Assembly (NCBI RefSeq): GCF_009695655.1
Contig: NZ_VUNM01000026.1
Coordinates: 1 to 40,475 of the forward strand
Direction: 5' to 3'
Origin: Sharpea porci
GTDB taxonomy: Bacteria; Bacillota_I; Bacilli_A; Erysipelotrichales; Coprobacillaceae
DNA length: 40,475 bases
Below the pieces are notes generated by a model. That model had not been told where the DNA came from, searched no databases, and saw nothing but the letters and a program-made list of their open reading frames with translations. Shown here in pieces: positions 11,695-40,130 of this stretch (position 1 is the first letter of the stretch; the number at the start of each line of letters is the position of its first letter). The translations under genes were made by a program, and so were the position numbers.

Positions 11695-11718
11695 CTTTTC
11701 GTTTTAATGGAAAAAGGC

Positions 11719-12022: not shown

Positions 12023-12032
12023 TAAAAATTTA

Positions 12033-12061: not shown

Positions 12062-12086
12062 GGGACACATATGGAGGATATGTATT

Positions 12087-12886: not shown

Positions 12887-13051
12887 CGTTTAAAAACAAA
12901 TTTTTTCTTCTTTTCATGAATATTTTTCTTTGAAAAAATGCACAAAAAACTGTTTACGCTTACACCTTGGTTTATCCTTAATTTTTACTGAATTTTGTGT
13001 TAAATTAGTGTTGTAAATTTATGTGTATTGTATTTATTTTTGAAGGAAATT

Positions 13052-14245
13052 ATGAAATTGAATGAATTTAACTGCCACAATCTAGAACAAATTAAAAAAG
13101 ACTATGAAGTTACGGATTTAGTAGCTCAGGTTATTGAATCACACAATCTTTCACAGGATGCTTTTAAGGAGTTTGATGAACGTATTGAGTTAGATCTCAA
13201 CAATCATCCTGAATTACAGCCTTTAAAAGCACAAATTGAAAGATGCCACGATGAAAATGAAAAAATTATCATTTTATCTTCACATACTGTTGATAATCTC
13301 TTTGCGGCGATTATCTTTGCCCGTTTATGTGTTATTAAGAAAATTGCTTATACATTAACACATATCAATAAAGATGAAACAATGGTCAGAGGAAATATTC
13401 TGATCTTAGGGGAAACTATCCGTTTCCTCAATAAAGCAAAGGGCATTGATATTGTCTTGCCAGAATCCTATCTCGCAAATTCAGGAATCGCCTACTTGAT
13501 TTCTTCATGCTTTGCGAATGACCGCTATGCCTTAGCCTTAGCTTGTATGGGAACAATTGCTTCCAACAAGGACTTAATTAAGGAAAATCGTACATTATAT
13601 CATGATGGCAAGCAGCTCTTAGAAGACCAGCGTTATAAATGCATGGAACGTGTGCTTATTTCAAGAGAAAAACGTAATCAGCAACTGCTCTATAATGGTC
13701 GCAACTATACACCTTATAGTGCTGGCATGATTCGTCGTCGCTTCGTCTACCCACTTGATCGCTATTTAGAAGAACATGCTGATAAGCGCTTTGTCGGCCT
13801 TCTTCAGTACTTCTTTAATCCCAATAAGGAAGATAAGAAATATCAGCTGTTTGGTACAATGTTGAATGGTATTGATGTCGAAGTACCAGAACTGAATGAC
13901 AATCCAACATATATAGAGACAAATCTCGATCTTGTCACAATTGATAATGTTCGTGCATTAGATCATACCTTTGAACCCTATCATGCCGGATTCAATCGAC
14001 CACATTGGGTCATTCGTGATGTTGAAGTCGCTGAATATCGCAAGTTTGATATGGCTCGTGGGCTAGAATTGTCATTTCGTACAAATCACGGCTTAGTCAA
14101 GGCGAGTGCATATGAGAATGAATGTGTTCATGTCAAGATCAATAATGGTGATCATGTAACAGTAGCTGGCACATTATCCATTAATGGCTTTTCTGGCTTG
14201 CCAATGTTGCATATGAAAGTGTTAGAAAATCTGAGTAATGAATAG
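13052..14245 (+). CDS. RecJ-like protein lacking the DHH catalytic motifs
   Basis: This 397-residue protein aligns by eye with the RecJ exonuclease plan. Residues near 75-90 (LSSHTVDNLFAAI) sit where RecJ has its DxDxDG motif but lack the aspartates, and no DHH triad is seen. SGIAYLIS followed by ALACMGTIASNKDLIKENR matches RecJ 'AGVAFKL ... VALGTIADVVPLxGENR'. The C-terminus (EPYHAGFNRPHWVIRDVEV, then VTVAGTLSINGFSGLP) matches the RecJ OB-like domain. It is shorter than RecJ (about 550 or more). It is probably a non-catalytic paralog that binds single-stranded DNA or a partner nuclease. The ATG at 13052 follows GAAGGA. It is the first gene of an operon with rlmI and the kinase. Confidence 0.6.
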   Translation: MKLNEFNCHNLEQIKKDYEVTDLVAQVIESHNLSQDAFKEFDERIELDLNNHPELQPLKAQIERCHDENEKIIILSSHTVDNLFAAIIFARLCVIKKIAYTLTHINKDETMVRGNILILGETIRFLNKAKGIDIVLPESYLANSGIAYLISSCFANDRYALALACMGTIASNKDLIKENRTLYHDGKQLLEDQRYKCMERVLISREKRNQQLLYNGRNYTPYSAGMIRRRFVYPLDRYLEEHADKRFVGLLQYFFNPNKEDKKYQLFGTMLNGIDVEVPELNDNPTYIETNLDLVTIDNVRALDHTFEPYHAGFNRPHWVIRDVEVAEYRKFDMARGLELSFRTNHGLVKASAYENECVHVKINNGDHVTVAGTLSINGFSGLPMLHMKVLENLSNE

Positions 14246-14255
14246 GGGAGTTATG

Positions 14256-15449
14256 ATGCGAAAACAAGTTGTGATATCAAATCAGGGGGCACCTTTTATT
14301 GAAAAAGGACAAACCTGGATGTATGCCAATAACTTAGTAAGAATGGATGAGCATGCAAAGAGTGGTGATGTTGTTGATATCATCTATGAGAATGGCCGGT
14401 ATCTTGCGACAGGCTTTCTCAACAAAGACTCCCATGTAGTGGTAAGAATTCTAACACGTCAGCAGAATGAAGAAATTGATGAAGCATTCTTTAAAAAGCG
14501 TATTAAATTTGCCTATGATTATCGTAAATGTGTTGAACGCAAGAATCTCACAAACTGTCGCTATGTCTTTGGTGAAGCAGATGGTCTTCCAGGGCTAACG
14601 GTCGATCGCTATAATGATCTACTTGTCACGCAGATTACATCTTATGGCTTAGAAATGCGTAAGGATATGCTTTATAAGTGCTTGCTTGAAGTCTTCAAGC
14701 AGGATGGTGTAGAAATAGCGGCAATCTATGAACGCAATGATGTCAAAGCAAGAGAAAAAGAAGGCTTAAAACTCTATAAAGGCTTTTATGGCAATAAAAA
14801 ACTATCGACAACAACAATCATTAATGAAAATGGCTTAAAACTCTATGTTGATATTGAAAATGGTCAGAAGACAGGCTATTTTCTTGATCAGAAAAGCAAC
14901 CGTCTCTTGCTTAGAGAAATGGCTTATGGCAAGAAGGTCTGTGATTGTTTTAGCCATACAGGTGGATTTGCCCTCAATGCAGCATTGGGCGGCGCAAGTG
15001 AAGTCACTGCTGTCGATGTCAGCAAGACAGCTCTTGATGAAGCATTGGCTAATGCCCAATTAAATCATCTTGAAGATCGGATGAAGTTTGTCCAGGCTGA
15101 TGTCTTTGACTTCCTTGATACCATCAAAGAGAATCAGTATGATATCATTGTTCTTGATCCACCAGCTTTCACAAAAAACCGCCGCACAATTGATCATGCC
15201 TACAAGGGCTATCTCGAAATCAATAAGAAAGCTATGAATGTCTTAAGACATGGTGGCTATCTTATTAGCTGTAGCTGTTCACGCTTTATGGAAAGAGAAA
15301 TGTATGAAAAAATGATTAGGCAAGCAGCGAGTGAAACAGGTGTCATGCTTAAACAAGTCAGTGTGACTCAACAAAACCATGATCATCCCATTCTTTGGGG
15401 CATGGCAGAAACAAGTTATTTAAAATTTTATATCTTCCAGATCATATAA
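14256..15449 (+). CDS. rlmI: 23S rRNA (cytosine-5)-methyltransferase, RlmI family
   Basis: This 397-residue SAM-dependent enzyme probably methylates one cytosine in 23S rRNA (C1962 in E. coli numbering). It has an N-terminal PUA domain (residues 1-75, SNQGAPFIEKGQTWMYANN), a central EEHEE-like region (VFGEADGLPGLTVDRY), and a Rossmann methyltransferase core with CDCFSHTGGFALNAA (motif I), VDVSKTALDEA (II), IIVLDPPAFTKNRR (IV) and LISCSCSRFM with the catalytic cysteine (VI). The ATG at 14256 is preferred over 14253 because GGGGAG ends five bases before it. The ribosome site overlaps the stop codon of the RecJ-like gene, so the two are coupled. Confidence 0.93.
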   Translation: MRKQVVISNQGAPFIEKGQTWMYANNLVRMDEHAKSGDVVDIIYENGRYLATGFLNKDSHVVVRILTRQQNEEIDEAFFKKRIKFAYDYRKCVERKNLTNCRYVFGEADGLPGLTVDRYNDLLVTQITSYGLEMRKDMLYKCLLEVFKQDGVEIAAIYERNDVKAREKEGLKLYKGFYGNKKLSTTTIINENGLKLYVDIENGQKTGYFLDQKSNRLLLREMAYGKKVCDCFSHTGGFALNAALGGASEVTAVDVSKTALDEALANAQLNHLEDRMKFVQADVFDFLDTIKENQYDIIVLDPPAFTKNRRTIDHAYKGYLEINKKAMNVLRHGGYLISCSCSRFMEREMYEKMIRQAASETGVMLKQVSVTQQNHDHPILWGMAETSYLKFYIFQII

Positions 15450-25611: not shown

Positions 25612-26392
25612 AACACTGAAACAAACAAGAACCATACTCATCTCATTTCTTATTCTCATCATTCTCTGGCAGCTTGCCATAAGCTTTGGGGGAATGAATA
25701 CAGCACTCTTTCCTTCACCTATAAAAGTCTTCAATGCCTTTGTTGGCTTAGCGACAAAAGGTCTCTCCGGTTCAACAACCGATGCTATTCTATGGATTCA
25801 TATCAAAGATAGCTTAGTCAGATTCTTCATTGGCTATTTACTGGCGGCATTATTAGGAATAGGATTTGGCTTATTGCTGGGATGGTTTCCTAAAGCCTTC
25901 AGCTATGTCAATCCGATTGTCCAGCTTATTAGACCCATTGCCCCAGTTGCCTGGCTGCCATTTCTTGTCTTAGTGATTGGTATTGGCAATCTACCAGCCA
26001 TTGCGATTATCTTTATTGCGGGATTCTTTCCCATTCTCTTATCCACAGTAAAAGCTGTTATTAATGTTGATCCGGTTTATCTTAAAGTCGCTAAAACATT
26101 TGGCTTAACACAATTACAGACTATCTTCAAGATTGTTTTGCCAGCTGCCTTTCCACAAATCTTCCATAGCTTACATTTAGCGCTAGGAACATGCTGGATA
26201 TTCTTAGTCTCAGGTGAGATGGTTGGCAGTCAGACAGGACTTGGCTTTCTGCTCATGGATGCCAAAAATACTATGCGTCCCGATGCCTTGTTAGCTGTCA
26301 TCATTACGATAGGTATTATTGGTCTGATCTTAGATCAAGCAATCGGTCTTTTCGAAAAGGCCATCAGAAAAACATGGGGATTTGGAGGCTAA
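25604..26392 (+). CDS. ABC transporter permease, SsuC/TauC type
   Basis: This 262-residue inner-membrane protein belongs to the BPD_transp_1 family. It has an N-terminal helix (RTILISFLILIILWQLAI), five to six further helices and the EAA-type loop for the ATPase (KVAKTFGLTQLQTIFKIVLPAAFPQI), typical of nitrate/sulfonate/taurine permeases. The ATG at 25604 follows AAGGAG by nine bases and overlaps the binding-protein gene by eight bases; longer in-frame starts would run far into that gene. It is the third gene of the cooS operon. Confidence 0.92.
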   Translation: MIKTLKQTRTILISFLILIILWQLAISFGGMNTALFPSPIKVFNAFVGLATKGLSGSTTDAILWIHIKDSLVRFFIGYLLAALLGIGFGLLLGWFPKAFSYVNPIVQLIRPIAPVAWLPFLVLVIGIGNLPAIAIIFIAGFFPILLSTVKAVINVDPVYLKVAKTFGLTQLQTIFKIVLPAAFPQIFHSLHLALGTCWIFLVSGEMVGSQTGLGFLLMDAKNTMRPDALLAVIITIGIIGLILDQAIGLFEKAIRKTWGFGG

Positions 26393-26394
26393 AT

Positions 26395-27165
26395 ATGTAT
26401 ATTGATATTCATGATGTTAGTGTAGAATACAAGCAAGACAATACCAGCTTTCTTGCTTTAGATCACATCAATCTCGCTATTGAACGAGGCGAATTCATCT
26501 GTCTCTTAGGCCCATCAGGATGTGGCAAGACAACCTTGTTGAATGCCATAGCCGGCTTTGAGAAAGTGACAAGTGGCACAATCACCATTGATGGCACACC
26601 AGTCACAAAACCTGATACACGCTATGTGACCATCTTCCAGAACTATGGTTTGCTGCCATGGCGTAGTGTTGAAAAGAATGTTGCGTTACCTTTAGAAACA
26701 AAGGGCTTAAGCAAACAAGAACAAGATGAACGCATCCAGCACTATTTAGAACTTGTCGGATTATCGGAGTATAAAGACCGTCATCCACATCAGTTATCAG
26801 GTGGACAGCAACAGCGTGTAGCAATTGCTAGAGCATTGGCAGTTAATCCAGATATACTTTTCATGGATGAACCCTTTGCGGCATTAGATGCCATCACAAG
26901 AATGAAGCTTCAGGATGATACCCGTCTTCTTTCTACGAAAGAGAAGAAAACGATTATCTTTGTCACACATGATATTGAAGAAGCTGTCTATTTGGCTGAT
27001 CGTATTGTCGTATTATCACCTAATCCAGGTCGTATTAAAAGCATTGTGGATGTCCACATGCCTTTCGAAAGAGACCGTACTTCCGATGACTTTATTCACA
27101 TCAGAGACAAAATCTTTGAAATCTTCAATATGAAAGTTGATCATGATCTTGAATATTATATTTAA
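26395..27165 (+). CDS. ABC transporter ATPase, SsuB/TauB type
   Basis: This 256-residue ATPase powers the permease encoded just upstream. It has Walker A GPSGCGKTT (from residue 39), the Q-loop FQNYGLLPW, signature LSGGQQQR, Walker B ILFMDEPFAALD and the switch histidine VTHDIEEA. The ATG at 26395 follows GGAGG (26384-26388), two bases after the permease stop. The last 171 codons and the first bases after the stop are repeated at 31816-32334 with about 18 base differences, mostly silent. The operon's original terminator is not here but behind that second copy, so this gene lies at the left edge of an insertion. Confidence 0.93.
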   Translation: MYIDIHDVSVEYKQDNTSFLALDHINLAIERGEFICLLGPSGCGKTTLLNAIAGFEKVTSGTITIDGTPVTKPDTRYVTIFQNYGLLPWRSVEKNVALPLETKGLSKQEQDERIQHYLELVGLSEYKDRHPHQLSGGQQQRVAIARALAVNPDILFMDEPFAALDAITRMKLQDDTRLLSTKEKKTIIFVTHDIEEAVYLADRIVVLSPNPGRIKSIVDVHMPFERDRTSDDFIHIRDKIFEIFNMKVDHDLEYYI

Positions 27166-27170
27166 CAGGC
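26652..27170 (+). repeat. Direct repeat, copy 1: 3' part of the transporter ATPase gene
   Basis: 519 bp matching 31816-32334 without gaps (offset 5164) and with about 18 mismatches counted by eye. The match starts inside the gene at GCTGCCATGG and ends five bases after the stop (AACAGGC). Confidence 0.95.
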
Positions 27171-27308
27171 AAGCTTGTACCAAATAAAATGCAAGAAGCA
27201 TTCATCAAAAACATCCTTCAGCTCAGAACAGATCGTGTTGATAAGGCCTTGCCACTATCAAGCACAGGGGACGATACAATAATACAGACAGGACGAAAAG
27301 CCGCTTAA
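27171..27308 (+). pseudogene. Unidentified gene remnant at the insertion edge
   Basis: An open frame of 45 codons starts directly at the junction with the repeated ATPase segment and ends TGRKAA plus TAA at 27306-27308; it includes MQEAFIKNILQLRTDRVDKA. Its end coincides with the first arm of a strong terminator, as for a real gene end. There is no full start region, so it looks like the C-terminal remnant of a gene cut by the rearrangement. I do not recognise the family. Confidence 0.45.
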
Positions 27309-27603: not shown

Positions 27604-28578
27604 CTATGAGTTCAAATATGCTTTGAGTGAGGTGATTTTGGAAGCAACATTCTGCTGGATGATCATGCTATAAATCTCCGGTGTAACCGAGGATTTAAGA
27701 AGATCATTCTGTTCCTTATACTGCCGTAATAAATCGTTTGCTCGTGTGTTGTTGAAGTCAATTCGCTTAAGTAAACAACAGATGATAATTATGTAATCTA
27801 CCAATGAGTAAAGCGTGATATTTTGTATTCCGGTTTCTTTCTCAACCCACCTTTTGAGAACATTACTGATTTTGCGATCTTTGAATCTTGTATCAAAAAT
27901 AATGTTGTTGTGAGCAACTGCATTACGTAATGCTTTTAAGGTGAAGAGAACAGTAGAGAGCAGTCCTCGATTAGTATCGATTGAAACATCAAATAAATCA
28001 ATCTGATTCAGAATATCCTCACGAGTTGCAGTATTGAGGCATTCAAAAAAACTTGCGAGATCTTTGAGGTACAAAAACTCAAAAATTGCCCATAGAGGTG
28101 CATCTTCACCTCGGTTATAAAAATGGCGTACCATTTGATTTTCTCGACGAGCTTCGTCGCTGTATCTTCTGGATACCTGAGAATATACAGAGTTCCGGAG
28201 CTTTAATCGTTTGAGCTGCAATTTTGCATTGGATGGATTATCTGACATTCGTTCTTTGTAGACGTAGTCAAACGTTCCCTGTCTCAAGCCTTCTACTGAT
28301 GTGTTACAAACAATGTTTTTAAGTGCAGTTTCTAAAAACATCAGTGTGGGATATAGTGCAGCCTTCATATTGTTATCATATTCGATAACTGCTACAACTT
28401 CACTGAAGTCGGTATAAGGGATCTGGGTGTTCTGTTGTTTGACAAAGCGATAACCCTTATATCCATGGTAGTATCCATAACTTACAAGCTGCTTTTTTTG
28501 TTTACTTCCATTGATTTGAACATTGCAATCATTCCGCAGGTGACGCATTAGTCCATTTATTGTTTGAGGAGAAGCCAT
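27604..28578 (-). CDS. AbiF/AbiD-type abortive infection protein (Abi_2 family, HEPN)
   Basis: This 324-residue protein matches the Abi_2 family plan: an N-terminal part (LVSYGYYHGYKGYRFV, then FSEVVAVIEYDNNMKAALYP) and a helical C-terminal part with a HEPN Rx4H site at R218-N-A-V-A-H223, the usual RNase centre. APLWAIFEFLYLKDLASFF is also family-typical. Such proteins sense phage infection and stop growth by cutting RNA. It has its own promoter (TTGTAC, 17 bp, TATCAT) and ribosome site (AGAAGGA), and runs against the neighbouring genes. A small RNA with independent promoter follows it. The module is bracketed by 14-bp direct repeats. Confidence 0.88.
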   Translation of the reverse strand: MASPQTINGLMRHLRNDCNVQINGSKQKKQLVSYGYYHGYKGYRFVKQQNTQIPYTDFSEVVAVIEYDNNMKAALYPTLMFLETALKNIVCNTSVEGLRQGTFDYVYKERMSDNPSNAKLQLKRLKLRNSVYSQVSRRYSDEARRENQMVRHFYNRGEDAPLWAIFEFLYLKDLASFFECLNTATREDILNQIDLFDVSIDTNRGLLSTVLFTLKALRNAVAHNNIIFDTRFKDRKISNVLKRWVEKETGIQNITLYSLVDYIIIICCLLKRIDFNNTRANDLLRQYKEQNDLLKSSVTPEIYSMIIQQNVASKITSLKAYLNS

Positions 28579-28999: not shown

Positions 29000-29039
29000 A
29001 AATAGTATAAAATGAAAATATTAAATAGGAGGAATGAGA

Positions 29040-29849
29040 ATGAAAGCCGGAGATTTCCTTAAAGTTATATATTTTGATGAGCCGTTCGTCTCTGATTTTT
29101 TACAGATTATAGCGGGTGGGGAATTAAAGAAAACTAGTGAATTTTTAAGTGAACTACATTCAAATGCTGATGCTGAAGCAGCTATCGATGCAAAGGCTGG
29201 AACTGATACAAAAGGTATCGCAAAGATTTTCAGCATTTTTTCCGGAATAGATCTTACTGTATCAGGAAAGGCCAGTGCTGAAATATCGCATAAAAGGGAT
29301 AGGATAGTAAAGAACATTTTAGAAAATACATTACTGTCTGATTTTGTATCGATTCTTAAAGCTGATGATAGACGACCGAAAAACAAAAGATGTGAAGGAA
29401 TTGAGGTATTCAAGAAAATCACAGTAAAACCGGTCAAGAATTCTTTTTCGTACTTCATGCTTATAGCACCATATATGTCAATGATGGATGGCAAAGTTGA
29501 TCTTGATGGGAGCACACTAAAGATTGATCCCGCAAAGTTGGAACAGGCATTAGATAAGGGACGTGGATTCTACGAATTTGTTGGTGTTGCTAATGGCAAA
29601 AAATTCATTATTAGATTTAATCGTCAAGCTTTCAGAAACGGATATACAATGTCTGACTTGCCCAAAATGGAACTTACCTATTATGCAATCAAAGTGGGGC
29701 AGATTTCGCTTGATGAATTGGATGTGAGTAAAGAGTTTGAGTTTGGAGCGAAGACCCCGGAGAGATTTGACTATAAACGACAGAATGAGACTGAAAAAGC
29801 AGATGTTCTGGATGTTTATGATGCCGTAATATCGGGGGTTTTACAGTAA
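29040..29849 (+). CDS. Cassette gene 1: unknown protein, DUF6414-like
   Basis: This 269-residue protein has no catalytic motif I can name. It opens KAGDFLKVIYFDEPFVSDFL, like DUF6414 proteins, which start with a similar I-Y-x-D/E strand. A central small-residue stretch (AEAAIDAKAGTDTKGIAK and LTVSGKASAEISHKRDRIV) could be amphipathic or membrane-interacting and is followed by KNILENTLLSDFVSIL. The second half looks globular. The ATG at 29040 is preferred over 29034 because AGGAGG ends seven bases before it. The stop overlaps the next start in TAATG. Family assignment is from memory of the N-terminal pattern and not firm. Confidence 0.6.
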   Translation: MKAGDFLKVIYFDEPFVSDFLQIIAGGELKKTSEFLSELHSNADAEAAIDAKAGTDTKGIAKIFSIFSGIDLTVSGKASAEISHKRDRIVKNILENTLLSDFVSILKADDRRPKNKRCEGIEVFKKITVKPVKNSFSYFMLIAPYMSMMDGKVDLDGSTLKIDPAKLEQALDKGRGFYEFVGVANGKKFIIRFNRQAFRNGYTMSDLPKMELTYYAIKVGQISLDELDVSKEFEFGAKTPERFDYKRQNETEKADVLDVYDAVISGVLQ

Positions 29850-30970
29850 TGGTCGAAAAGGTAGAAGTTTTCTGGGGATCAGATAAGGACTTTGAAGATG
29901 CAATAGCTGGAATACAGCATCCTACTTATCTTGTTGATGTGTTTAACCATATAAATCAAACAAAGGTTAAAGTCGATGGAGTTAATAAAACAGATTCGCC
30001 GCTGGAAGTGGAAAATCTCATTATTCATACTGATGACTATGGTGGCATTCAGGAATGGGCTTTGATGGGATTCTCAATTAATGTTATCGAGAATCCTCGA
30101 TTAAAAGTTAGCAATGTATGGATGTGCAATCCACCGCTTCAGATCTATGATGATATTAAACGAACATACGTAGGCAAGATTGAGGAACATAAAACTGAAT
30201 ATCCTAAAATTACAGAAGAGGCTCTCATGAAAATATCTAAAGGATATGATAAGGCAGTCATCGGCCAACCGCATGTAATTCAAGATATCTTACCTGCAAT
30301 ATATTCACTCATTAAGAAGCATAGAAAAAAACCAGCAACACTTTTATTTTTGGGCACTTCAGGTATTGGAAAAACAGAAACCGCGAATTTCATCGGGGAC
30401 TGTATCGGAAATGGCATGGTTAGAATCCAGTTCTCAATGCAACAGACCAACAATGCTGTACAGTATATTTTTGGAGGTGGACATGGTGAAGATAGCTTGG
30501 CCCGGCGATTAATCCGGCGAAAGAGTAACCTTATATTACTCGATGAGTTTGATAAGGTGTCACCCGGATTTTATAATGCTTTCTATCAGATGTTTGATGA
30601 AGGAGAATTTGTCGATAAAAACTATAGAGTCGATGTGTCTGATTGTATTATTATATGCACTTCAAATTTTTTGACGGAGGAAGATGCAGAGAAAAATCTG
30701 GGCTCAGCCATTTACTCAAGATTTACCAAGGTTCTTCGATTTGAACCGATAAGTGAAGCAGACCGTATTCGCATTGCGAAGATATCATTTAATAGAGTGT
30801 TTGATGAATTAAGCCCGGAAGAACAAGGAATGGTTCCTAAAGAAAAATTGCTGGATTTCTATTCGAATGCGATTCAAAAAGGAGCATATAATAATATTCG
30901 AATGCTGAGAAGTGATATAGAAGAAAGTATATATTTTGAAATATTGAGAGCCAAGAAAATTCTTCCATAG
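29849..30970 (+). CDS. Cassette gene 2: AAA+ ATPase of the ClpA/ClpX-like class
   Basis: This 373-residue protein carries a private N-terminal domain (about residues 1-130) and one AAA+ module: Walker A GTSGIGKTET (169-178), Walker B LILLDEFDKV (D232, E233), sensor 1 IICTSNF, the arginine-finger segment GSAIYSRFTKVLRF and a C-terminal helical lid with sensor-2-like arginines (NNIRMLRSDIEES). The module resembles the second ATPase domain of Clp/Hsp100 proteins. It lacks an obvious ClpP loop and any protease or nuclease domain, so it probably remodels a partner, most simply the proteins of its neighbours. It overlaps gene 1 by one base. Confidence 0.85.
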   Translation: MVEKVEVFWGSDKDFEDAIAGIQHPTYLVDVFNHINQTKVKVDGVNKTDSPLEVENLIIHTDDYGGIQEWALMGFSINVIENPRLKVSNVWMCNPPLQIYDDIKRTYVGKIEEHKTEYPKITEEALMKISKGYDKAVIGQPHVIQDILPAIYSLIKKHRKKPATLLFLGTSGIGKTETANFIGDCIGNGMVRIQFSMQQTNNAVQYIFGGGHGEDSLARRLIRRKSNLILLDEFDKVSPGFYNAFYQMFDEGEFVDKNYRVDVSDCIIICTSNFLTEEDAEKNLGSAIYSRFTKVLRFEPISEADRIRIAKISFNRVFDELSPEEQGMVPKEKLLDFYSNAIQKGAYNNIRMLRSDIEESIYFEILRAKKILP

Positions 30971-31010
30971 CTATATTCGGAAATGTAAAAACAGACAAGG
31001 GGGGAGCGAT

Positions 31011-31568
31011 TTGGGAAATATATTAAATAGTATTTTACAATTTATATCTGAAAATGTGTTGTCAGTAATTACTGCAGCAACTGCGATTGTGTCTGTCTGT
31101 ATTTCTTTGCGAACGCTTCGCCAAAATTCTAAAATGCTCGAAGAATCGAGTAGACCTTATATAACCGCTCAGATTGAGCATATTGGTAATGCTTTTTATC
31201 TTCGTTTTAAGAATTACGGGCAATCAGCAGCGATTATCGATAATATCGAATTAGATGAAAATGCAGAGAGAGTTCAAGTGGAAGATTATATTACGGTCTT
31301 CGAAGATTTTTGTGGAAACACTATTCCGCCAAACTACTCATTTATGACATGTATTCGACAGGATAATGTATCTGGTGAAGAGAATAAAATCTCGATAGAT
31401 ATAAAATATCACTCTGCCGTAAGGAAATACACTGAGCATGTTGAAATTAATTTGGCAGCCTATAAAAAAGTTCTTGAGGCTAGGCGAAATATTGACCGAA
31501 ACAATGCAGAGGTTGTTATAGGTAAGACGTTGCAGGATCTAGTATTTGCGGTCGAAAAACAGCAGTAA
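31011..31568 (+). CDS. Cassette gene 3: single-pass membrane protein
   Basis: This 185-residue protein starts at TTG behind GGGGGAG. One N-terminal membrane helix (NVLSVITAATAIVSVCISL, residues about 14-32) is followed by a short basic/helical linker (RTLRQNSKMLEESSRP) and a beta-rich cytoplasmic domain (YITAQIEHIGNAFYLRFKNYG, IDIKYHSAV). No enzyme motif is visible. Layout and the YITAQIE-type strand recall membrane proteins of unknown function common in mobile islands. It lies 40 bases after the ATPase gene and is followed by a terminator, so it closes the cassette. A membrane anchor or effector role is inference. Confidence 0.7.
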   Translation: MGNILNSILQFISENVLSVITAATAIVSVCISLRTLRQNSKMLEESSRPYITAQIEHIGNAFYLRFKNYGQSAAIIDNIELDENAERVQVEDYITVFEDFCGNTIPPNYSFMTCIRQDNVSGEENKISIDIKYHSAVRKYTEHVEINLAAYKKVLEARRNIDRNNAEVVIGKTLQDLVFAVEKQQ

Positions 31569-31612: not shown

Positions 31613-31651
31613 GCCCCTTGGCTATCCTAACCGATAGTCAAGGGCTTTTTT
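31613..31651 (+). terminator. Intrinsic terminator of the three-gene cassette
   Basis: Long stem from 31613-31626 and 31633-31645 with one bulge and one mismatch, then six Ts. The following 31652-31815 holds no gene; an imperfect tandem repeat (AGTTCCGCACTCAG, AGTTCCGCTCAG) lies at the very end, touching the repeat junction. Confidence 0.85.
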
Positions 31652-31815: not shown

Positions 31816-32329
31816 GCTGCCATGGCGTAGTGTTGAAAAGAATGTTGCTTTACCTTTAGAAACAAAGGGCTTAAACAAACAAGAACAAGATGAACGCATC
31901 AAGCGCTATTTAGAACTTGTTGGACTATCAGACTATAAAGACCGTCATCCACATCAGTTATCAGGTGGACAGCAACAGCGTGTAGCAATTGCAAGAGCAC
32001 TGGCAATTAATCCAGATATACTTTTCATGGATGAACCTTTTGCGGCATTAGATGCCATCACAAGAATGAAGCTTCAGGATGATACCCGTCTTCTTTCTAC
32101 GAAAGAAAAGAAAACAATTATCTTTGTCACACATGATATTGAAGAAGCTGTCTATTTAGCTGATAGTATTGTCGTATTATCACCTAATCCAGGTCGTATT
32201 AAAAGCATTGTGGATGTCCACATGCCTTTTGAAAGAGACCGTACTTCCGATGACTTTATTCACATCAGAGACAAAATCTTTGAAATCTTCAATATGAAAG
32301 TTGATCGTGATCTTGAATATTATATTTAA
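31816..32329 (+). pseudogene. Displaced 3' fragment of the SsuB-type ATPase gene (repeat copy 2)
   Basis: The segment holds the last 171 codons of the ATPase gene at 26395, in the same frame to the TAA at 32327-32329, with signature, Walker B and switch histidine but no Walker A or start. It differs from copy 1 at about 18 of 519 positions, mostly third codon bases, so it is another allele rather than a fresh duplicate. Unlike copy 1 it keeps the gene's natural terminator (AACAGGC, TACG, GCCTGTT and Ts). It is thus most likely the original chromosomal 3' end, pushed aside by the insertion. Confidence 0.92.
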
Positions 32330-32350
32330 CAGGCTACGGCCTGTTTTTTA
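32328..32350 (+). terminator. Terminator of the displaced ATPase fragment
   Basis: AACAGGC (32328-32334), TACG, GCCTGTT (32339-32345) and Ts. This is the terminator missing at 27170. Confidence 0.85.
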
Positions 32351-32525
32351 TTGCATACGCCTACCAATAAGTAATGGATTATAGATTCTTATCATGAGAA
32401 CAATCATTAATCTTAAAAGGAACCAGATTCTTTGGCTCTTTCAAGTATGCATCCTCAAACCATATACCTCTATTGACATAATAATATGCTACAATGCTTC
32501 CTTTACTTATGTTGGGAGGGCTTGG

Positions 32526-32597
32526 TCTTTGAAATCTTCAATAAGAAAGTTGATTGTGACCTTGAATATCATATTTAACAAGTTAAGGCTTGTTTTT
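32526..32597 (+). repeat. Third, older copy of the ATPase gene end with terminator
   Basis: The 72 bases match the last 17 codons, stop and terminator of the ATPase gene with clearly more changes than copy 2 (for example AATAAGAAAG for AATATGAAAG, and AACAAG/CTTGTT for the terminator arms). It marks a separate, earlier event at the same gene end. The interval 32351-32525 holds no gene that I can support. Confidence 0.85.
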
Positions 32598-32644
32598 TCT
32601 TACATGTTTATTATTTCTTGGCTCTGTTATCAATAATAAGAAGC

Positions 32645-32733: not shown

Positions 32734-34515
32734 ATGAGTAATAATTATCAACGTTTATTATCATTTTTAATAAAGTATCATGGTAAGCAATATAAAAAAC
32801 AAGAAAAATGTACTGAAGAAGAAAAATTATATATGAATGAGGCAAAAAAAGCCGGGCAAGAAGCGCGAAATGCGTTTACATCATTGGTTGGAATAATAGA
32901 AAAAGAATATGATTTTACTCATGAACGTATTTCTCAGTGGCAAAATAGTGGTACATTTGTAAGTTATTTTTGGTGCCAAATGAAACGTTCAAGTCATAAA
33001 AACAGCCAAATAAGTCTCTCTTTATTTGCTGAAAAAGCAGATGACGTTTTTCGATTTCGTCTAAGTATTGAACTTGCTATTGATAAGGCTCAAAAAGATG
33101 ATTTAGAAACGTATAAAAGACTCTTGGACATACCTCTTAAAAAAGAGTTAGTTTATATTTCAGGCGGTAACAATGAAGATGAATTCCGAGTATTAAATGA
33201 GAGAGATAATAGCATTGTGAAAGCAATGGGATTAAAAAAGGTACAAGTATCTTATGTATTTAAAGATGAACAGTATACAGATGATGATTCTTTTGAAAAA
33301 GAAGTTTTAAAAGCTGCGGGATTATTAATACCCTATTATGAATATCTATTTAATAATAAGGATGAAAAAGTAAAAGATAAAACAAATGAACAAGATGATG
33401 GGAAAGAGCAGGTATCTTTTATGTCTATATCAACGACAGATGCAATTGCACAGATTAAAGATTATATAGTATCAAAAGGATTTAGTTATCCTGATGGTTT
33501 GATTGAAAACTTTTACCTTTGTCTGAAAAGCAAACCATTTGTTATTTTGGCAGGTACTTCAGGAACTGGTAAAACGCGATTAGTTAAGCTTTTTTCTCAA
33601 GCAATTTCTGCTAAATATCACTTGGTCTCAGTGCGTCCAGACTGGAGTGATGGGAGTGATCTTTTTGGTCATACAGATTTAAATGGCAGATTTATTGAAG
33701 GACCAATTTGTAGTGCTTTTCAGGATGCAATTAAAAATCCTGATATTCCTGTGATTCTTTGCTTAGATGAAATGAACCTAGCTAGGGTAGAGTATTATCT
33801 TAGTGATTTTCTTTCTGTAATTGAATCAAGGGAGAGGGAGCAAGACAAAATAGTAACTACAGCAATTGCTCAGTATCAAGAAGGTATACCTGATAATTTG
33901 TATATCGTTGGTACTGTTAACATGGATGAAACAACATTCCCATTTAGTAAGAAAGTTCTTGATCGTGCAAATACAATTGAATTTAGCTTCGTTGACCTTG
34001 TCCCTGATTTTAGTGATGTTGGTAATAGTGTGGATCCTTTAAAGCTATCTAATAGTTTTCTTTGTACTAACTATCTTGTGTTAGGTCAGGATTGCATTGC
34101 TGAAGCAAATTATGTTGTAGATATTTGTAATGAATTACAAAAGATAAATGAAATTTTGTTAGAAGCAAATGCTCACGTAGGATATCGTGTAAGAGATGAA
34201 ATAGTCTTTTACCTACTTAACAACAAACAATCTGGAGATCTTCTTTCTCATGATCAAGCAATGGATAATGAAATTATGCAAAAGATACTTCCTAGAATTC
34301 AAGGAAGTTCTAATACAATACATGATATGCTTTGTGAACTATTTAAAGTTTGTGCAGCTGATTATACACAAAAAACAGGTGATAGTGATTCTGAGAAAAT
34401 GAAAAAAATTCTAGTAGATCAAGACATTAGTTGTAAATACAGAAAGAGTGCAGAAAAACTAGAACTTATGGTTAGAAGATTTGAAGAGGACGGATTTACA
34501 TCATATTGGTTATAA
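32734..34515 (+). CDS. mcrB: McrB-type AAA+ GTPase subunit of a modification-dependent restriction system
   Basis: This 593-residue protein has an N-terminal region like the MrcB_N/DUF3578 domain (residues about 30-200, FRFRLSIELAIDKA) and a McrB AAA+ motor: Walker A GTSGTGKT (274-281), SVRPDWSDGSDLFG, Walker B LCLDEMNLAR, and VGTVNMDETTFPFSKKVLDRANTI, which corresponds to the MNxxD GTP-binding and sensor region, followed by the arginine finger. It moves along DNA and drives the nuclease subunit encoded 34 bases downstream. The DNA-reading N-terminus differs from E. coli McrB, so its target modification is unknown. The region is visibly richer in A+T than the core genes to the left. Confidence 0.88.
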   Translation: MSNNYQRLLSFLIKYHGKQYKKQEKCTEEEKLYMNEAKKAGQEARNAFTSLVGIIEKEYDFTHERISQWQNSGTFVSYFWCQMKRSSHKNSQISLSLFAEKADDVFRFRLSIELAIDKAQKDDLETYKRLLDIPLKKELVYISGGNNEDEFRVLNERDNSIVKAMGLKKVQVSYVFKDEQYTDDDSFEKEVLKAAGLLIPYYEYLFNNKDEKVKDKTNEQDDGKEQVSFMSISTTDAIAQIKDYIVSKGFSYPDGLIENFYLCLKSKPFVILAGTSGTGKTRLVKLFSQAISAKYHLVSVRPDWSDGSDLFGHTDLNGRFIEGPICSAFQDAIKNPDIPVILCLDEMNLARVEYYLSDFLSVIESREREQDKIVTTAIAQYQEGIPDNLYIVGTVNMDETTFPFSKKVLDRANTIEFSFVDLVPDFSDVGNSVDPLKLSNSFLCTNYLVLGQDCIAEANYVVDICNELQKINEILLEANAHVGYRVRDEIVFYLLNNKQSGDLLSHDQAMDNEIMQKILPRIQGSSNTIHDMLCELFKVCAADYTQKTGDSDSEKMKKILVDQDISCKYRKSAEKLELMVRRFEEDGFTSYWL

Positions 34516-34549
34516 ATAATCATTCAAATTAAAGAAGGAATAAAAAACC

Positions 34550-37012
34550 ATGAGTAAAAATACAGATGAGCTAATTTATATACAGACAGATATTTTAACA
34601 GTGACAATCAAAGGTAATGCCTCTCATCCTTCTTTCCCAGGAACTAACTTTGTCGATAAAGATGCAACGTTACAGATATCATGTGATGATATTTTTGAAT
34701 TAAACATGGCAGTGGATTCTACCCCTATTTCAAAACAGCATTTAGGAAAGTCTTGCATAGAACAATATCGGCATTCTCCAGTATTCTTTGAGCAGCAACA
34801 ATATGAGATTGTAATTGAACCAGAGGAAGGTCATATTGTAGAGTTTTGGCATGAAAATTACAATATTCGTAAAAACGTCACACCAGTTGGCCGTAAATCA
34901 AATATGCTTTCTGGAATTATCAATTTTGGAAATGATATTGGATATTCTGATTTATTTATCAAAGTGGATGGTACAAACTATCTTAAAATGACGATAGAAG
35001 TATTTCCTTCAAAAATAGGTTATAAAGATGATTATAAGGCAATTATGGCTGATGTGATGACTGAACTTTATAGCCTCATTTTCGACTTTTTAAAAAAGAC
35101 ATATGATTCATTTGATATTTCTTCAAAACAACAATCTACACCAGTAGAGTTCTTTTCAATCATTCGTAAAATATATAAGGAATTTGTTACTGCAGCTGAC
35201 ATGGTTAACGCAAAGCCTAACCATGTTCTTGAAAGGGAATATTTAGTACTTCCTGGATATAAAGTTAAGCGGACGGATAATCGAACTGTTCGCTGGATTG
35301 AGAAACATCCTGAGCAAGTTTTAAAGACAAATAAGGGTATAATGATTGATCGAGCCTTATCTGTGGAGAAACACATTACATATGATACGAATGAGAATCG
35401 TATGACTAAATACATCCTGAAAACCACAATGAAACGCCTTGAAAATTTTAAATCTCAATATATGAAGTTAGCTAGAGAAACAGACGTAAGTTTGATAAAT
35501 CAACTTGATAATATGATTCAAGGAATACGTAGAAGATATAGCACTGGTTTTATGAGAGAAGTTGAAGCTATTCCAACCAAATCAAGTATGTCATTGGTCT
35601 TTAGTATGGCACCTGGATACAGAGAATTGTATCGATACTACTTGCTTCTTCAGCATGGTCTTTATATAAGTGGTAGTATATTCAATGTCTCAGTTAAAGA
35701 TTTGGCAGTTCTTTACGAGTACTGGTGCTTTATTAAACTTAATAATTTAATGAAGGAACGTTATGAGTTAATCTCGCAAGATATTATAAAAGTAGTTGGG
35801 AATGGGTTATTTGTTTCTTTAGTTAAAGGACAACGTAGTAGGGTTCGCTATCGCAATCCAGAAAATGGAGAACTCATAACGCTTTCATATAATCCTAAGG
35901 AAATTGCAGGAGCAACTGTTCCACAAAAGCCGGATAATGTGTTGAGTTTGAAAAAGAAAGGTGCAAAATTCAATTATGAGTATGTGTTTGATGCGAAATA
36001 TAAAATAAATCCAGCACTCAAGGGTAGTATGTATCAACAAATGTATAATACACCTGGACCTCAAGAAGAAGATATCAATACAATGCACCGTTATAGAGAT
36101 GCAATTGTCAATCAAAATGATGCTTCTCCATATGAGCGTACTATGTTTGGAGCCTATGTGCTATTCCCTTATAGAAATCAAGAAGAGTATAAACAACATA
36201 GATTTTATAAAAGTATTGATCAAGTTAATATTGGTGGATTGCCTTTTTTACCATCAGCTACAGATCTTGTTACGGAAATGCTTGATGAATTGATTTCTGA
36301 CTCTCCTGAGTCAGCCTTTGAACGTGCAACATTGCCGATAGGTATTGAAGAACGTCTTGCACGAGTAGATTGGAATAAGAGGGATGTTTTAATTGGTGGG
36401 TTACAAAGTCATGCACAATTTGAAGCATGTCTAAAAAATAATTTTTACTATATACCATGTAAAAATATTAAAAATAATGATTTACCAATTCATTATGTGG
36501 CTCTTTTCCAAATACCCCGTATTTTTTCAAACAATGCAGGTATATATTATTACGGAGAAGTTTTAAGCTCAACAATTGAACAAAGAAAGGATATCCAAGA
36601 ATTTCCAATAAATAGTAATACTAATCCAGTTGAACCCTATTATAGGTTTGATGTGAGTGAATGGATTTCACTAGATAAACCGATACTTCCTAAAGAATCA
36701 GGATTTGCTAATGAGTTTACAAACTCATTTTTACTTGAAAATTGTGAATTCATACCTGAGCTTTTACTTCAATCTGAAGAGGAATATAGATTATATACGG
36801 AACTTAAGCGTCGGACAGGAAAGGTGTTAGAAGAAAACAAAACAAAAACTGGATTTGAACTTGGAAGTCTGAAAGTATTGTTTGAGGATGGGGATATTAC
36901 TCTTTTCCGCGATGGGAAACTTTTGGATTGTTGTACACTAAAAGATTTTTCAAGACATCCAAATGCAATGTTTAGAAGGTTACAGAGGTACGTTGCTAAA
37001 GAAAATGAATAG
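34550..37012 (+). CDS. McrC-like nuclease subunit (DUF2357, PD-(D/E)xK)
   Basis: This 820-residue protein is larger than E. coli McrC (about 350) and matches the DUF2357-containing McrC relatives. The N-terminal half is a long beta/helical region (EPEEGHIVEFWHENYNIRK); then LAVLYEYWCFIKLNNLM leads into the nuclease core with KPDNVLSL (catalytic Asp) and YEYVFDAKYKI (D/A-x-K) near residues 463-485. The tail after about 600 has an added domain with HYVALFQIPRIF and a final strand region. It should be the cutting partner of the McrB-like GTPase. The ribosome site GAAGGA precedes the ATG. Confidence 0.83.
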   Translation: MSKNTDELIYIQTDILTVTIKGNASHPSFPGTNFVDKDATLQISCDDIFELNMAVDSTPISKQHLGKSCIEQYRHSPVFFEQQQYEIVIEPEEGHIVEFWHENYNIRKNVTPVGRKSNMLSGIINFGNDIGYSDLFIKVDGTNYLKMTIEVFPSKIGYKDDYKAIMADVMTELYSLIFDFLKKTYDSFDISSKQQSTPVEFFSIIRKIYKEFVTAADMVNAKPNHVLEREYLVLPGYKVKRTDNRTVRWIEKHPEQVLKTNKGIMIDRALSVEKHITYDTNENRMTKYILKTTMKRLENFKSQYMKLARETDVSLINQLDNMIQGIRRRYSTGFMREVEAIPTKSSMSLVFSMAPGYRELYRYYLLLQHGLYISGSIFNVSVKDLAVLYEYWCFIKLNNLMKERYELISQDIIKVVGNGLFVSLVKGQRSRVRYRNPENGELITLSYNPKEIAGATVPQKPDNVLSLKKKGAKFNYEYVFDAKYKINPALKGSMYQQMYNTPGPQEEDINTMHRYRDAIVNQNDASPYERTMFGAYVLFPYRNQEEYKQHRFYKSIDQVNIGGLPFLPSATDLVTEMLDELISDSPESAFERATLPIGIEERLARVDWNKRDVLIGGLQSHAQFEACLKNNFYYIPCKNIKNNDLPIHYVALFQIPRIFSNNAGIYYYGEVLSSTIEQRKDIQEFPINSNTNPVEPYYRFDVSEWISLDKPILPKESGFANEFTNSFLLENCEFIPELLLQSEEEYRLYTELKRRTGKVLEENKTKTGFELGSLKVLFEDGDITLFRDGKLLDCCTLKDFSRHPNAMFRRLQRYVAKENE

Positions 37013-37203
37013 GAAATTATCCGGATCTAACTTCTTTGATTATCAGCATGACCATCTTTATTTGCCATTATGAAGCCATTAAATATATAATTAGTGATAT
37101 AGGAATTGGTGTTCCCATTTGAGAGATTTAGCTTTTTTTCTTGTGATGTATTACTGTTAAATATGATTATGTATAAATGTTAAATAATGAATGGAGTGGT
37201 TAG

Positions 37204-38667
37204 ATGTTTGATGCTAAATTGGGTTATGACCCTGCAAGTCCTGATAGCATAGAACAATTTGCTGAGGGTCTTAAAGACAAAACTTTTTATGAAGTCATTA
37301 GTGAAAACGATTCAATAACAAGCGAGGATATTGAATCCTATGCAAATAAGTTAAGAAAAGGTGGATTAGGAAATTTATTAGAAGAAGGTTATTTTGGATA
37401 CAAAGCTAACTCAAAGCAAGAATCAGATTTTCCTGAAGCTGGTGTGGAGCTAAAAGCAACACCTTTTGAATATACCAAGAAGGGGCAATTAAGAGCAGGT
37501 GAACGATTGGTCATTACCATGATTAATTATGATGGTCCTGTTGAAAACGATTTTTATCAATCACATGCATGGGATAAAATGCATTTAATACTCTTGATAT
37601 ATTATTGGAGAAATAAGGCCTTAAAGCGTAACCTTGATTATCAGATAAAGTATGTCCAAATGTTTACTCCACCAGAACAGGACTTAGCGATAATAAAAAA
37701 AGATTATGAGTACATTGTAAAAAAAATACAAGATGGTAAAGCACATGAGCTCTCAGAAGGGGATACAATGTATCTTGGAGCGTGTACTAAAGGAGCATCA
37801 GCAAAGAAAAGTATTGTGCCACAATTCTATGGCGAAAAACTACCAGCAAAAAAGAGAGCATTTTGTTTTAAGAATTCTTATATGACATATGTTCTTAATC
37901 ATTATATTGCAGGCGAAGAAGCAAATGATGCAATTGTAAAAAATGTAGAAGAATTAAAAAAGAAATCATTTAGTGAAATCCTTAAGGATATTGTAAAAAA
38001 ATATATAGATTTCTCAGATAAAGAATTATGCAAGATTTTCCATCGTGAATATAACAATAATAAAGCACAATGGAATGATTTGGCCTTTAAGATTCTAGGA
38101 GTTCGTAATGAACATGCTGATGAATTTGAAAAAGCAAATATTAGAGTTAAAACAATCAGAATAAACGAAAATCATTCTATTCGAGAAAATATGTCTTTTT
38201 CAACTTTTAAGTTTATGGATATAGCTAATGAAGAATTTGATGATTCGGCTCTTTATGAATATTTTGATCAAACACAATTGTTCTTCTTTGTTTGGGTACA
38301 AGATGGTGATGTATATCGTGTTAAGGGCTGTCAGCTTTGGAATATGCCTCATGATGATTTAGAATATACTGTTCGAAAAGAGTGGGAAGACGTAAAGCAT
38401 GTAATTAATGAAGGCGTTAAATTCACAAAGTGTGTTAATTCAAATGGAGAAATCAAGTTTAAGAATAATTTTCCTAACAAAAAACAAACAAAAATTATTC
38501 ATATTAGACCACATGCCATAAAGGCAGCGTATCGCTTTAAAAATGGCGAAGAGTATGGTAATGTAAATCGCGATGCTTATGAACTTCCTAATGGGGAATA
38601 TATGACGAAAATGAGCTTTTGGTTAAACAATGATTATGTATTAAAACAATTAGATTGTATTGATTAA
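37204..38667 (+). CDS. Sau3AI-type type II restriction endonuclease (probably GATC)
   Basis: This 487-residue protein matches Sau3AI in length and plan: two MutH-like domains, the first carrying the catalytic motif in KGGLGNLLEEGYFGYKANS and SDFPEAGVELKATP, where D75, E82 and K84 form the metal site. The second, allosteric domain covers roughly residues 240-487. Sau3AI cuts before GATC; the same specificity is inferred here, not shown. The cytosine-5 methyltransferase 71 bases downstream is its protecting partner. A weak promoter (TATAAA region near 37167) and GGAGTGG precede the ATG. The 190-base gap before it shows no other gene. Confidence 0.9.
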   Translation: MFDAKLGYDPASPDSIEQFAEGLKDKTFYEVISENDSITSEDIESYANKLRKGGLGNLLEEGYFGYKANSKQESDFPEAGVELKATPFEYTKKGQLRAGERLVITMINYDGPVENDFYQSHAWDKMHLILLIYYWRNKALKRNLDYQIKYVQMFTPPEQDLAIIKKDYEYIVKKIQDGKAHELSEGDTMYLGACTKGASAKKSIVPQFYGEKLPAKKRAFCFKNSYMTYVLNHYIAGEEANDAIVKNVEELKKKSFSEILKDIVKKYIDFSDKELCKIFHREYNNNKAQWNDLAFKILGVRNEHADEFEKANIRVKTIRINENHSIRENMSFSTFKFMDIANEEFDDSALYEYFDQTQLFFFVWVQDGDVYRVKGCQLWNMPHDDLEYTVRKEWEDVKHVINEGVKFTKCVNSNGEIKFKNNFPNKKQTKIIHIRPHAIKAAYRFKNGEEYGNVNRDAYELPNGEYMTKMSFWLNNDYVLKQLDCID

Positions 38668-38676
38668 AAGTAATGC

Positions 38677-38705
38677 TTGATCTTATATAAACCTACTGCT
38701 ATAAT
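38677..38705 (+). promoter_or_regulatory. Promoter of the methyltransferase gene, with a GATC in the -35 box
   Basis: TTGATC (38677-38682), 17-bp spacer, TATAAT (38700-38705). The -35 box contains GATC (38679-38682), the likely target of the encoded enzyme, so methylation could feed back on its expression. Confidence 0.7.
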
Positions 38706-38738
38706 GGGAGTACAAAAGCAGTTAGGAGAGAATTATTT

Positions 38739-40130
38739 GTGGAAAAGACAGTTTGTGAGTTATTTGCTGGTGTAGGCGGATTCCGTTGTGGCCTTAATAA
38801 CATTAAAGAGAGTGTTGTTTATTCTCCAGAAAACAATGCTAAAGAAAAATGGAAGACAGTTTGGTATAATCAATGGGAACCTGCAGAAAAGAGTACGCAG
38901 TATGCTCATGATTGTTACAAATATCATTTTGGAGTTTGTCTTGATAAGAATGGTAATGACACTACAAATGTTGATATTGAAAAAGTTGATAAATCAACCA
39001 TACCGGATTTTTCGCTGCTTGTGGGCGGATTTCCATGTCAGGATTATTCAGTTGCTTCATCATTGGCTACTTCTAAAGGATTAGAAGGTAAAAAAGGCGT
39101 TTTGTGGTGGTCGATAAGAAAAATGATTGAAGTTAAGCAGCCACCATTTGTTTTATTGGAAAATGTTGATAGATTGCTAAAATCTCCAGCTAGTCAGAGA
39201 GGCAGAGACTTCGGCATCATGCTCGCTTGTTTTAGAGATGAAGGCTATACTGTAGAATGGCGTGTTATTAATGCTGCCGAATATGGCTATCAGCAAAGAA
39301 GACGTAGAACATTTATTTTTGCTTATAAAAATACGACTAAATATGCTCAGCATATTTCAAAGACTGTTGGTTGCAGTAGCGAAGATAATGACAGTAAGTC
39401 TAGTGCTGCAAAGCTATTAGGAGCTGAAGGATTTTTTGCTAAGACTTTTGCAATAAAACCTATTCAAGAAAGCAAGATAAAGATAATTTCGTTGTCAGAA
39501 AATCTTGGTGATATATCAGATTCTTTTCAGTTTAACTTTGAAAATTGTGGTGTAATGAAAGATGGTATAATTTACACAATCAAAACTACACCTCAATATT
39601 TTGGAAAACAAATCACTTTAGGAGATGTTATGGAAACAGGGAATGTTGATGAATCTTATTTCATTCCTGAAGAGCAATTATATTACACGGATCCTGAAAT
39701 AAATCGTAGTGATGAATCACAAGGAAAATTACCAATCCAACAAAGAAAGACTTGGCAGTATCTTAAAGGTGCTAAGAAGCTTTTAAGAAAATCTGCTAAT
39801 GGACACGAATATATATATTCAGAAGGCCCAATTGCTATGATTGATGAAGAAGATAAGCCAGCTAGAACTATGCTTACATCAGAAGGGTCATTTAGTCGTT
39901 CCACTCACATTGTGAGGGATAGAAAAACAGGCCGTATTAGACTATTAACTGCTGAGGAAGCAGAAAGAATTCAAGGCTTTCCTACTGAACATACAAAGTA
40001 TTGTGATGTTGATGGAAAAGTCGTTGAAATGCCATTACGTAAGCGTAGATTTATGATGGGAAATGCGTTAGTAGTCAATTTAATAAGTGATATGGAAAAG
40101 ACACTTAGCAGTATCATTGATGCTGAATAA
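38739..40130 (+). CDS. DNA (cytosine-5)-methyltransferase, partner of the Sau3AI-type enzyme
   Basis: This 463-residue m5C methyltransferase has motif I FAGVGGFRCGL, motif IV GGFPCQDYS with nucleophile C100, motif VI VLLENVDRLL, motif VIII QQRRRRTFIF, a variable target-recognition region (about residues 215-370), and motifs IX-X (RLLTAEEAERIQGFP, MMGNALVV). It protects host DNA, most likely at GATC. It starts at GTG (38739) behind TAGGAGAG, and has a separate promoter, so it can be made before the endonuclease when the island enters a new cell. Its final codons form the terminator stem. Confidence 0.93.
   Translation: MEKTVCELFAGVGGFRCGLNNIKESVVYSPENNAKEKWKTVWYNQWEPAEKSTQYAHDCYKYHFGVCLDKNGNDTTNVDIEKVDKSTIPDFSLLVGGFPCQDYSVASSLATSKGLEGKKGVLWWSIRKMIEVKQPPFVLLENVDRLLKSPASQRGRDFGIMLACFRDEGYTVEWRVINAAEYGYQQRRRRTFIFAYKNTTKYAQHISKTVGCSSEDNDSKSSAAKLLGAEGFFAKTFAIKPIQESKIKIISLSENLGDISDSFQFNFENCGVMKDGIIYTIKTTPQYFGKQITLGDVMETGNVDESYFIPEEQLYYTDPEINRSDESQGKLPIQQRKTWQYLKGAKKLLRKSANGHEYIYSEGPIAMIDEEDKPARTMLTSEGSFSRSTHIVRDRKTGRIRLLTAEEAERIQGFPTEHTKYCDVDGKVVEMPLRKRRFMMGNALVVNLISDMEKTLSSIIDAE

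Follow-up and report, generated by a model that had tools for sequence, protein, structure and literature searches.

Three consecutive genes on the forward strand of contig NZ_VUNM01000026.1 of Sharpea porci (assembly GCF_009695655.1) are described here; they lie in a stretch of 40,475 nucleotides that was analysed as a whole and is called the window below. To judge from their sequences, the first two genes are firmly identified as dolA and dolB, which together make up the Dodola anti-phage system. The third gene, which encodes a predicted membrane-anchored protein, is concluded to be a passenger and no conserved third component of the system. In the mechanism proposed below, the ATPase DolB would keep DolA inactive until infection. 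The explanation as a whole, namely a Dodola pair with a passenger gene 3 and this proposed mode of action, is considered very probable, and its separate steps are graded where they are discussed.

Identification of the Dodola pair

Both proteins align with their PADLOC models along nearly the full length: gene 1 with DolA (residues 5-267 against model positions 4-257 of 258) and gene 2 with DolB (residues 3-367 against positions 2-369 of 375); E-values are listed in Table 1. Gene 1 also matches the Pfam family DUF6414 with 111.6 bits (cut-off 25), which agrees with its description as DUF6414-like in an earlier, sequence-only reading of the same DNA. The Pfam match of gene 2 is AAA_2. The phage-defence candidate PDC-M37B matches the AAA+ part of DolB as well (residues 108-365, 2e-30); however, DolB is far closer to its own model (2.2e-116), and no PDC-M37 model is matched by DolA. 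The locus shares with Dodola the model matches of both proteins, the gene order, the strand, a ClpB-like AAA+ partner, and a defence neighbourhood, and it differs in that a third, membrane-anchored gene trails dolAB in an apparent operon. In the open reading frame (ORF) listing of the window, gene 1 extends from 29034 to 29849. The ATG at 29040 is favoured as its start over the ATG at 29034, because six bases separate the former from the AGGAGG at 29028-29033, whereas the latter touches it. Genes 1 and 2 share one base, in that the ATG of gene 2 begins within the stop codon of the gene before it (TAATG).

The names DolA and DolB follow PADLOC, and the term DUF6414 was not found in the literature searched. 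Dodola was reportedly first described by Millman et al. in 2022. In the available sections of PMC11514479, it is presented as a two-gene system with activity against SPP1; the names of the two proteins appear to be swapped in these sections, as the Clp-like matches are given to DolA. According to excerpts of PMC12322248, Dodola carried on plasmids acts against phages in S. thermophilus, and both its mechanism and its abortive phenotype are given there as "unknown"; the mechanism is likewise listed as "unknown" in an excerpt of PMC12926258. The sequence-only reading had proposed the three genes as a new cassette, a claim that fails because they include a defence system that is already published and phage-tested (PMC11514479 and PMC12322248, in the parts available). 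The defence function that it had proposed is borne out by the near-full-length matches to DolA and DolB and by the neighbours of the pair in relatives, which are often restriction, BREX, Gabija-like, or other defence genes.

Related loci were collected by scanning genome contigs of 84,980 species with a DolB alignment by way of two peptide patterns, and the best 80 of 163 were kept; what is called a gene in them is an ORF called mechanically and not taken from an annotation. This co-occurrence search placed dolA directly upstream of dolB, on the same strand, in 77 of the 80 loci. In three of the 77 the dolA ORF is short: that of L014 runs into the end of its contig, and those of L046 and L085 have 105 and 160 amino acids. 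Two of the three loci without an adjoining dolA (L063 and L083) begin at contig edges, and the third (L091) is considered below. The pair is rare among genomes: counting that of the window, DolA was found in 3 of 43 genomes at the level of the family and in 4 of 392 at that of the phylum, one of the latter matches being weak (5e-4). A housekeeping role was rejected in view of this rarity and of the many defence genes next to the pair.

DolB, DolA, and the proposed mechanism

DolB is composed of an alpha/beta N-terminal domain (residues about 1-116) and one AAA+ module of the Hsp100 D2 type (about 117-373), and its predicted model has a predicted local distance difference test (pLDDT) score of 93.7. 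The AAA+ fold matches the second module of ClpA and ClpB with Z about 21, and nearly all structural alignments of DolB are centred on this part. Across 62 aligned DolB sequences, no variation is seen in the Walker A, Walker B, sensor 1, arginine-finger, and sensor-2 residues. In particular, G169, G172, K175 (the Walker A lysine), D232, E233 (the Walker B glutamate), N273, R291, and R351 of the window protein are found in 62 of 62, and by this residue test the ATPase active site is intact. These results agree with the earlier description of gene 2 as an ATPase that keeps its AAA+ residues, K175 and E233 among them, and that has its own N-terminal domain and no effector. A second AAA+ module, such as ClpA, ClpB, and ClpC possess, was not found in DolB, and the libraries searched yielded no effector domain. 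In Hsp100 machines, a GYVG pore loop grips the substrate. The alignment shows no such loop in any of the 62 DolB sequences, and in a profile alignment ClpC is five residues longer than the DolB profile at this position. Thus, DolB shares the fold and the catalytic residues of the second Hsp100 module but differs from ClpA, ClpB, and ClpC in its single AAA+ module, its own N-terminal domain, and the lack of GYVG.

DolA is predicted to consist of a C-terminal part resembling an oligonucleotide/oligosaccharide-binding (OB) fold and of an inserted helix, amphipathic hairpin-like stretch, and helix (AlphaFold2 model, pLDDT 76). The likeness of residues 116-269 to OB folds is weak (VIA-align Z 4.3-6.2, a range that the tool calls common). 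Foldseek returned no match at E 0.001 or better for DolA against PDB and BFVD, and no significant sequence match to solved structures was obtained. No known pore-former fold was matched significantly by Foldseek either, the hairpin region of the model being of low confidence.

The hairpin-like stretch is better described by its residue pattern. In 58 DolA sequences, two arms flank a hydrophobic tip. Polar and apolar residues take turns along both arms in the manner of a beta strand, and alanine, glycine, serine, and threonine make up 51% and 56% of these arms versus 29% of the aligned protein. The mean z for beta-alternation is about 2.1-3.0 at residues 46-52 and 74-80, and it peaks at 2.5 around residue 48 and at 2.9-3.0 around residue 76; the maximum is 1.23 in DolB (62 sequences) and 1.79 in the gene-3 family (17 sequences). 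An earlier test, in which the tip was taken as the most hydrophobic hexamer, gave a mean z of 2.34 for arm 2, with positive values in 54 of the 58 sequences. Moreover, a joint criterion was applied that combined two beta-alternating arms (scored as the minimum-arm z), small-residue content, and a hydrophobic tip. It was evaluated on the 74 DolA ORFs with 180 or more amino acids (near-duplicates included), on 409 other genes from these loci, and on 80 DolB. At z >= 2, it was passed by 63 of the 74 DolA, by 13 of the 409 other genes (4 of 104 when those of similar length are taken), and by none of the 80 DolB. Among the 58 non-redundant DolA, 49 pass, the window protein with a minimum-arm z of 3.25 being one of them.

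On the strength of these residue patterns, the hairpin-like stretch is judged to be a conserved property of the DolA family and not random low-complexity sequence. Amphipathic arms rich in small residues and joined by a hydrophobic tip are known from the membrane-inserting beta-hairpins of pore formers, and the DolA stretch resembles such a hairpin, although segments of this kind could also serve oligomerisation in solution. The earlier suggestion that gene 1 has a possibly membrane-active stretch is thereby strengthened. The likeness to bacterial gasdermins and other beta-hairpin pore formers lies in the beta-alternating small-residue arms and the hydrophobic tip; it concerns the sequence pattern. 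On the side of the differences, DolA matches no solved structure significantly in sequence or fold, and its partner is an ATPase and not a protease.

The following mechanism is proposed. DolB, which is related to the second AAA+ module of ClpA, ClpB, and ClpC, would form an ATP-driven ring. Since the aromatic substrate-gripping pore loop is missing, DolB would act as a switch or remodeller and not as a threading unfoldase. It would hold DolA in an inactive state and, upon infection, release or remodel it. Freed DolA would then expose its amphipathic hairpin-like stretch and insert into the membrane, and the infected cell would be stopped. DolA is somewhat favoured as the effector, because Dodola has two genes and DolB offers nothing beyond its AAA+ module and an unassigned N-terminal domain. 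That DolA acts by inserting into the membrane is a tentative proposal, unlikely when taken by itself, and a similar doubt applies to Dodola being a new type of ATPase-gated membrane-pore defence, in which a non-threading DolB ring holds or loads DolA and DolA inserts beta-hairpins. The delayed growth of strains that carry Dodola on the chromosome, mentioned in excerpts of PMC12322248, fits a costly effector.

Several observations weigh against this reading. The hairpin is not built in the AlphaFold2 model (pLDDT 34-52, with values below 50 at residues 42-78). A z of 2.0 is also attained elsewhere in DolA, at residues 232-233, and in the earlier test arm 1 was weaker than arm 2 (mean z 1.37, positive in 49 of 58). 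Nine of the 58 non-redundant DolA fail the joint criterion; with the threshold lowered to z 1.5, as many as 58 of the 409 other genes pass (along with 66 of the 74 DolA and none of the 80 DolB), and the DolA counts are not independent because the sequences are homologous. As regards the pair itself, no dolA is detectable in the 558 bases upstream of dolB in locus L091 (1-1710), which is possibly a solitary dolB. The excerpts of PMC12322248 contain the authors' own attribution of the growth delay to metabolic burden at the chromosomal locus, and in the available sections of PMC11514479 the Dodola of that study had minimal effect on the phages tested. Evidence on phage escape, discussed below, comes solely from the table of one review.

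The weakly OB-fold-like part of DolA could, instead, mean nucleic-acid binding. Dodola would then act on nucleic acid: DolA would bind that of the phage or of the host, DolB would remodel the complex, and the small-residue stretch would be a soluble oligomerisation hairpin. Consistent with this possibility, OB folds, to judge by the entry titles, are numerous among the 50 best structural rows for residues 116-269, with single-strand DNA-binding proteins, tRNA synthetases, and MCM among them, and PMC11514479, in the sections available, gives one of the Dodola proteins weak matches to DNA/RNA binding or modification. However, the Z values of these rows fall in the common range, and OB folds bind proteins and sugars too, those of toxins and superantigens being in the same list. 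Foldseek offered nothing for DolA at E <= 0.001, and genes 1 and 2 matched no nuclease family above curated cut-offs. Action on nucleic acid is accordingly rated as possible yet rather unlikely.

Another explanation makes Dodola a chaperone-like machine, which would bind phage structural proteins and spoil virion assembly without killing the cell. The AAA+ module of DolB belongs to the Hsp100 family, and a table in the review PMC10286901, as far as available, places Dodola among the systems that phages escape through mutations in structural proteins. Such mutations would be expected equally if the structural proteins were the trigger and not the target, however, and the pore loop with which Hsp100 machines grip their substrates is missing from every DolB aligned. 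The growth cost noted above fits a toxic effector somewhat better, apart from the authors' own explanation. This explanation, too, is held to be improbable, and both nucleic-acid binding and interference with virion assembly are considered about as likely as membrane insertion of DolA. In the working model, DolB gates DolA, which would be the effector and would perhaps act at the membrane. The hairpin-like stretch of DolA and the loss of the pore loop from DolB, both seen across the family, make the question of mechanism accessible to direct tests. If DolA is indeed a membrane effector, an Hsp100-type ATPase has become the control unit of a pore former.

Gene 3 as a probable passenger

Gene 3 starts with TTG, 40 bases 3' of gene 2. 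This gap contains a G-rich run resembling a ribosome-binding site, GGGGGGAG, and a hairpin scan found no terminator-like site between the two genes; gene 3 is probably co-transcribed with dolAB. The three same-strand genes, the 1-base overlap, and the terminator of the sequence-only reading are all present in the ORF listing and the hairpin scan, and its placement of gene 3 at the membrane is supported by one predicted N-terminal membrane segment, which is followed by a soluble domain with a KNxG motif. In the gene-3 family, arginine and lysine residues follow the membrane helix, and by the positive-inside rule the main domain would be cytoplasmic. Searches of solved structures with phmmer and with profiles gave nothing useful for gene 3 (best E 0.6).

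Residues 17-151 of the protein match the phage family PHROG 9607, with which it has the membrane helix, an R-P-Y-I region, and the K-N-x-G motif in common. It differs from that family in position: gene 3 stands behind dolB in a chromosomal island, whereas phage members stand near repressor or early genes. The latter arrangement was seen in five phage records, in which dolAB is not annotated alongside. The gene-3 family was found in 12 phage records, 19 viral-contig loci, and 7 of the 392 genomes of the phylum, that of the window included. The phage members of PHROG 9607 (loci L117 and L123-L145; 17-sequence alignment) are candidate superinfection-exclusion proteins. Gene 3 may possibly have a membrane or superinfection role of its own.

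The "trio" of the sequence-only reading does not survive comparison with relatives. A gene-3 relative lies behind dolB in 1 of the 80 related loci, of which 75 have at least 700 bases behind dolB, and a profile built from the 17 family sequences gave the same count. No relative was seen at the 12 nearest DolB relatives (in L017, 139 bases are visible), and none was found in three plasmid and two further genome dolAB loci, within the stretches available. A gene-3-like match two genes upstream of dolAB in locus L045 was rejected; it had appeared with an iterated profile of few sequences and was lost with the 17-sequence profile. The single locus with a gene-3 relative (L031) is from Kallipyga; its dolB product is 33% identical to that of the window, and 51 bases separate the two genes.

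A true three-gene system with gene 3 as membrane effector would agree with the common strand, the 40-base gap, and the shared terminator of genes 1 to 3, with their location in one apparent insert, and with the distant Kallipyga locus. By rough reasoning, with no computed test, this recurrence behind dolB in two distant lineages is above chance for a family found in so few genomes, so that gene 3 may have an occasional accessory role. Nevertheless, with a relative in one locus of 80 and at none of the nearest DolB relatives, with phage members that have no dolAB annotated beside them, and with Dodola presented as a two-gene system in the available sections of PMC11514479, a three-gene system is very unlikely, and gene 3 is read as a passenger of the Dodola pair.

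Neighbouring genes and the island

In the related loci, a gene on the same strand ends within 100 bases of dolA in 38 of the 71 loci that have an upstream gene. After omission of L015 and L069 as near-duplicates, 36 of these genes were scanned. Matches to PADLOC models of known or candidate defence genes at 1e-30 or better were obtained for 25 of them, 21 of the 36 being restriction-modification or BREX genes; the other 11 had no PADLOC match at this threshold. In loci between L012 and L091, dolA is often tucked behind a restriction or BREX gene, BrxL included, as if Dodola rides such operons. Co-localisation of restriction-modification genes with Dodola, outside defence islands, is mentioned in the available text of PMC10924106.

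Downstream of dolB, GajA-like proteins account for 5 of 75 genes, and TIR, ApeA, Shedu, HNH, and AAA_13 proteins also occur (Pfam scan, 10 of the 75). In L035, L050, L058, and L065, the gene behind dolB shares 4 bases with it and encodes a protein of 603-620 amino acids, the N-termini of these proteins being similar, and a gene for 573-623 amino acids comes next; the downstream gene of L050 encodes AAA_15 and OLD-like TOPRIM domains. A second gene behind a GajA-like gene is the arrangement of a complete Gabija system. Because this second gene trails them, the GajA-like genes are regarded as belonging to neighbouring systems, and these loci possibly hold a Dodola-Gabija operon. The idea of variable third-gene effectors coupled to dolB (GajA-like, AAA_13, TIR, ApeA, Shedu, and HNH proteins) was considered and rejected.

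Table 1. Features of the dolAB locus and its surroundings in the window
Feature	Position	Strand	Match or description
dolA (DUF6414), 269 amino acids	29040..29849	+	PADLOC DolA 5.3e-71; Pfam PF19952 7.5e-32
dolA hairpin-like part, residues 43-83	29166..29288	+	small-residue beta-alternating arms flanking a hydrophobic tip (about 60-69)
dolB, 373 amino acids, ATG start	29849..30970	+	PADLOC DolB 2.2e-116
gene 3, 185 amino acids, TTG start	31011..31568	+	PHROG 9607 1.7e-19
intrinsic-terminator-like hairpin 3' of gene 3	31615..31644	+	12-pair stem, T run
Abi_2 / AbiD-type abortive infection gene, divergent from dolA	27604..28578	-	Pfam PF07751 2.9e-29; PADLOC AbiD 5.3e-22
ATP-binding cassette (ABC) transporter ATPase gene, 3' end bounding the island on the left	26374..27165	+	
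second copy of the 3' part of the ABC gene, right edge of the AbiD-Dodola-gene 3 block	31816..32334	+	519 bases, 97% identical
third partial copy of the 3' end of the ABC gene	32526..32580	+	

In the window, the flanks named by the sequence-only reading stand in part: the McrB-like and Sau3AI genes are present on the right, whereas PADLOC assigns the Abi_2 gene on the left to AbiD and reports no AbiF. The right flank (32734-38667) carries an McrB-like AAA_5 gene, a DUF2357/PDDEXK_7 gene, and Sau3AI. These genes run in one direction with an ORF that looks by eye like a cytosine methyltransferase, over 32734-40130. The McrB-like and DUF2357/PDDEXK_7 genes match the PADLOC candidate PDC-M26 in part.

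The cassette lies between repeated 3' ends of the ABC gene, a circumstance that the sequence-only reading had overlooked. The outer spans of the repeats are 26374-27192, 31816-32356, and 32526-32605, and past the third copy, similarity to the downstream sequence of a sister species extends to 32653. Because the first copy ends abruptly and the second begins abruptly, the block may have entered by a single homologous crossover of a DNA circle of about 5.2 kb that carried a piece of the ABC gene. A genome of the same genus (G031) has one full-length match to the ABC gene and other ORFs at the same site (L115, G031:C1:60000-79000, 5000-14301), and the site may therefore be a recurrent one for defence cargo. 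Two of the ORFs at the G031 site resemble cytosine methyltransferases by eye, with no profile run.

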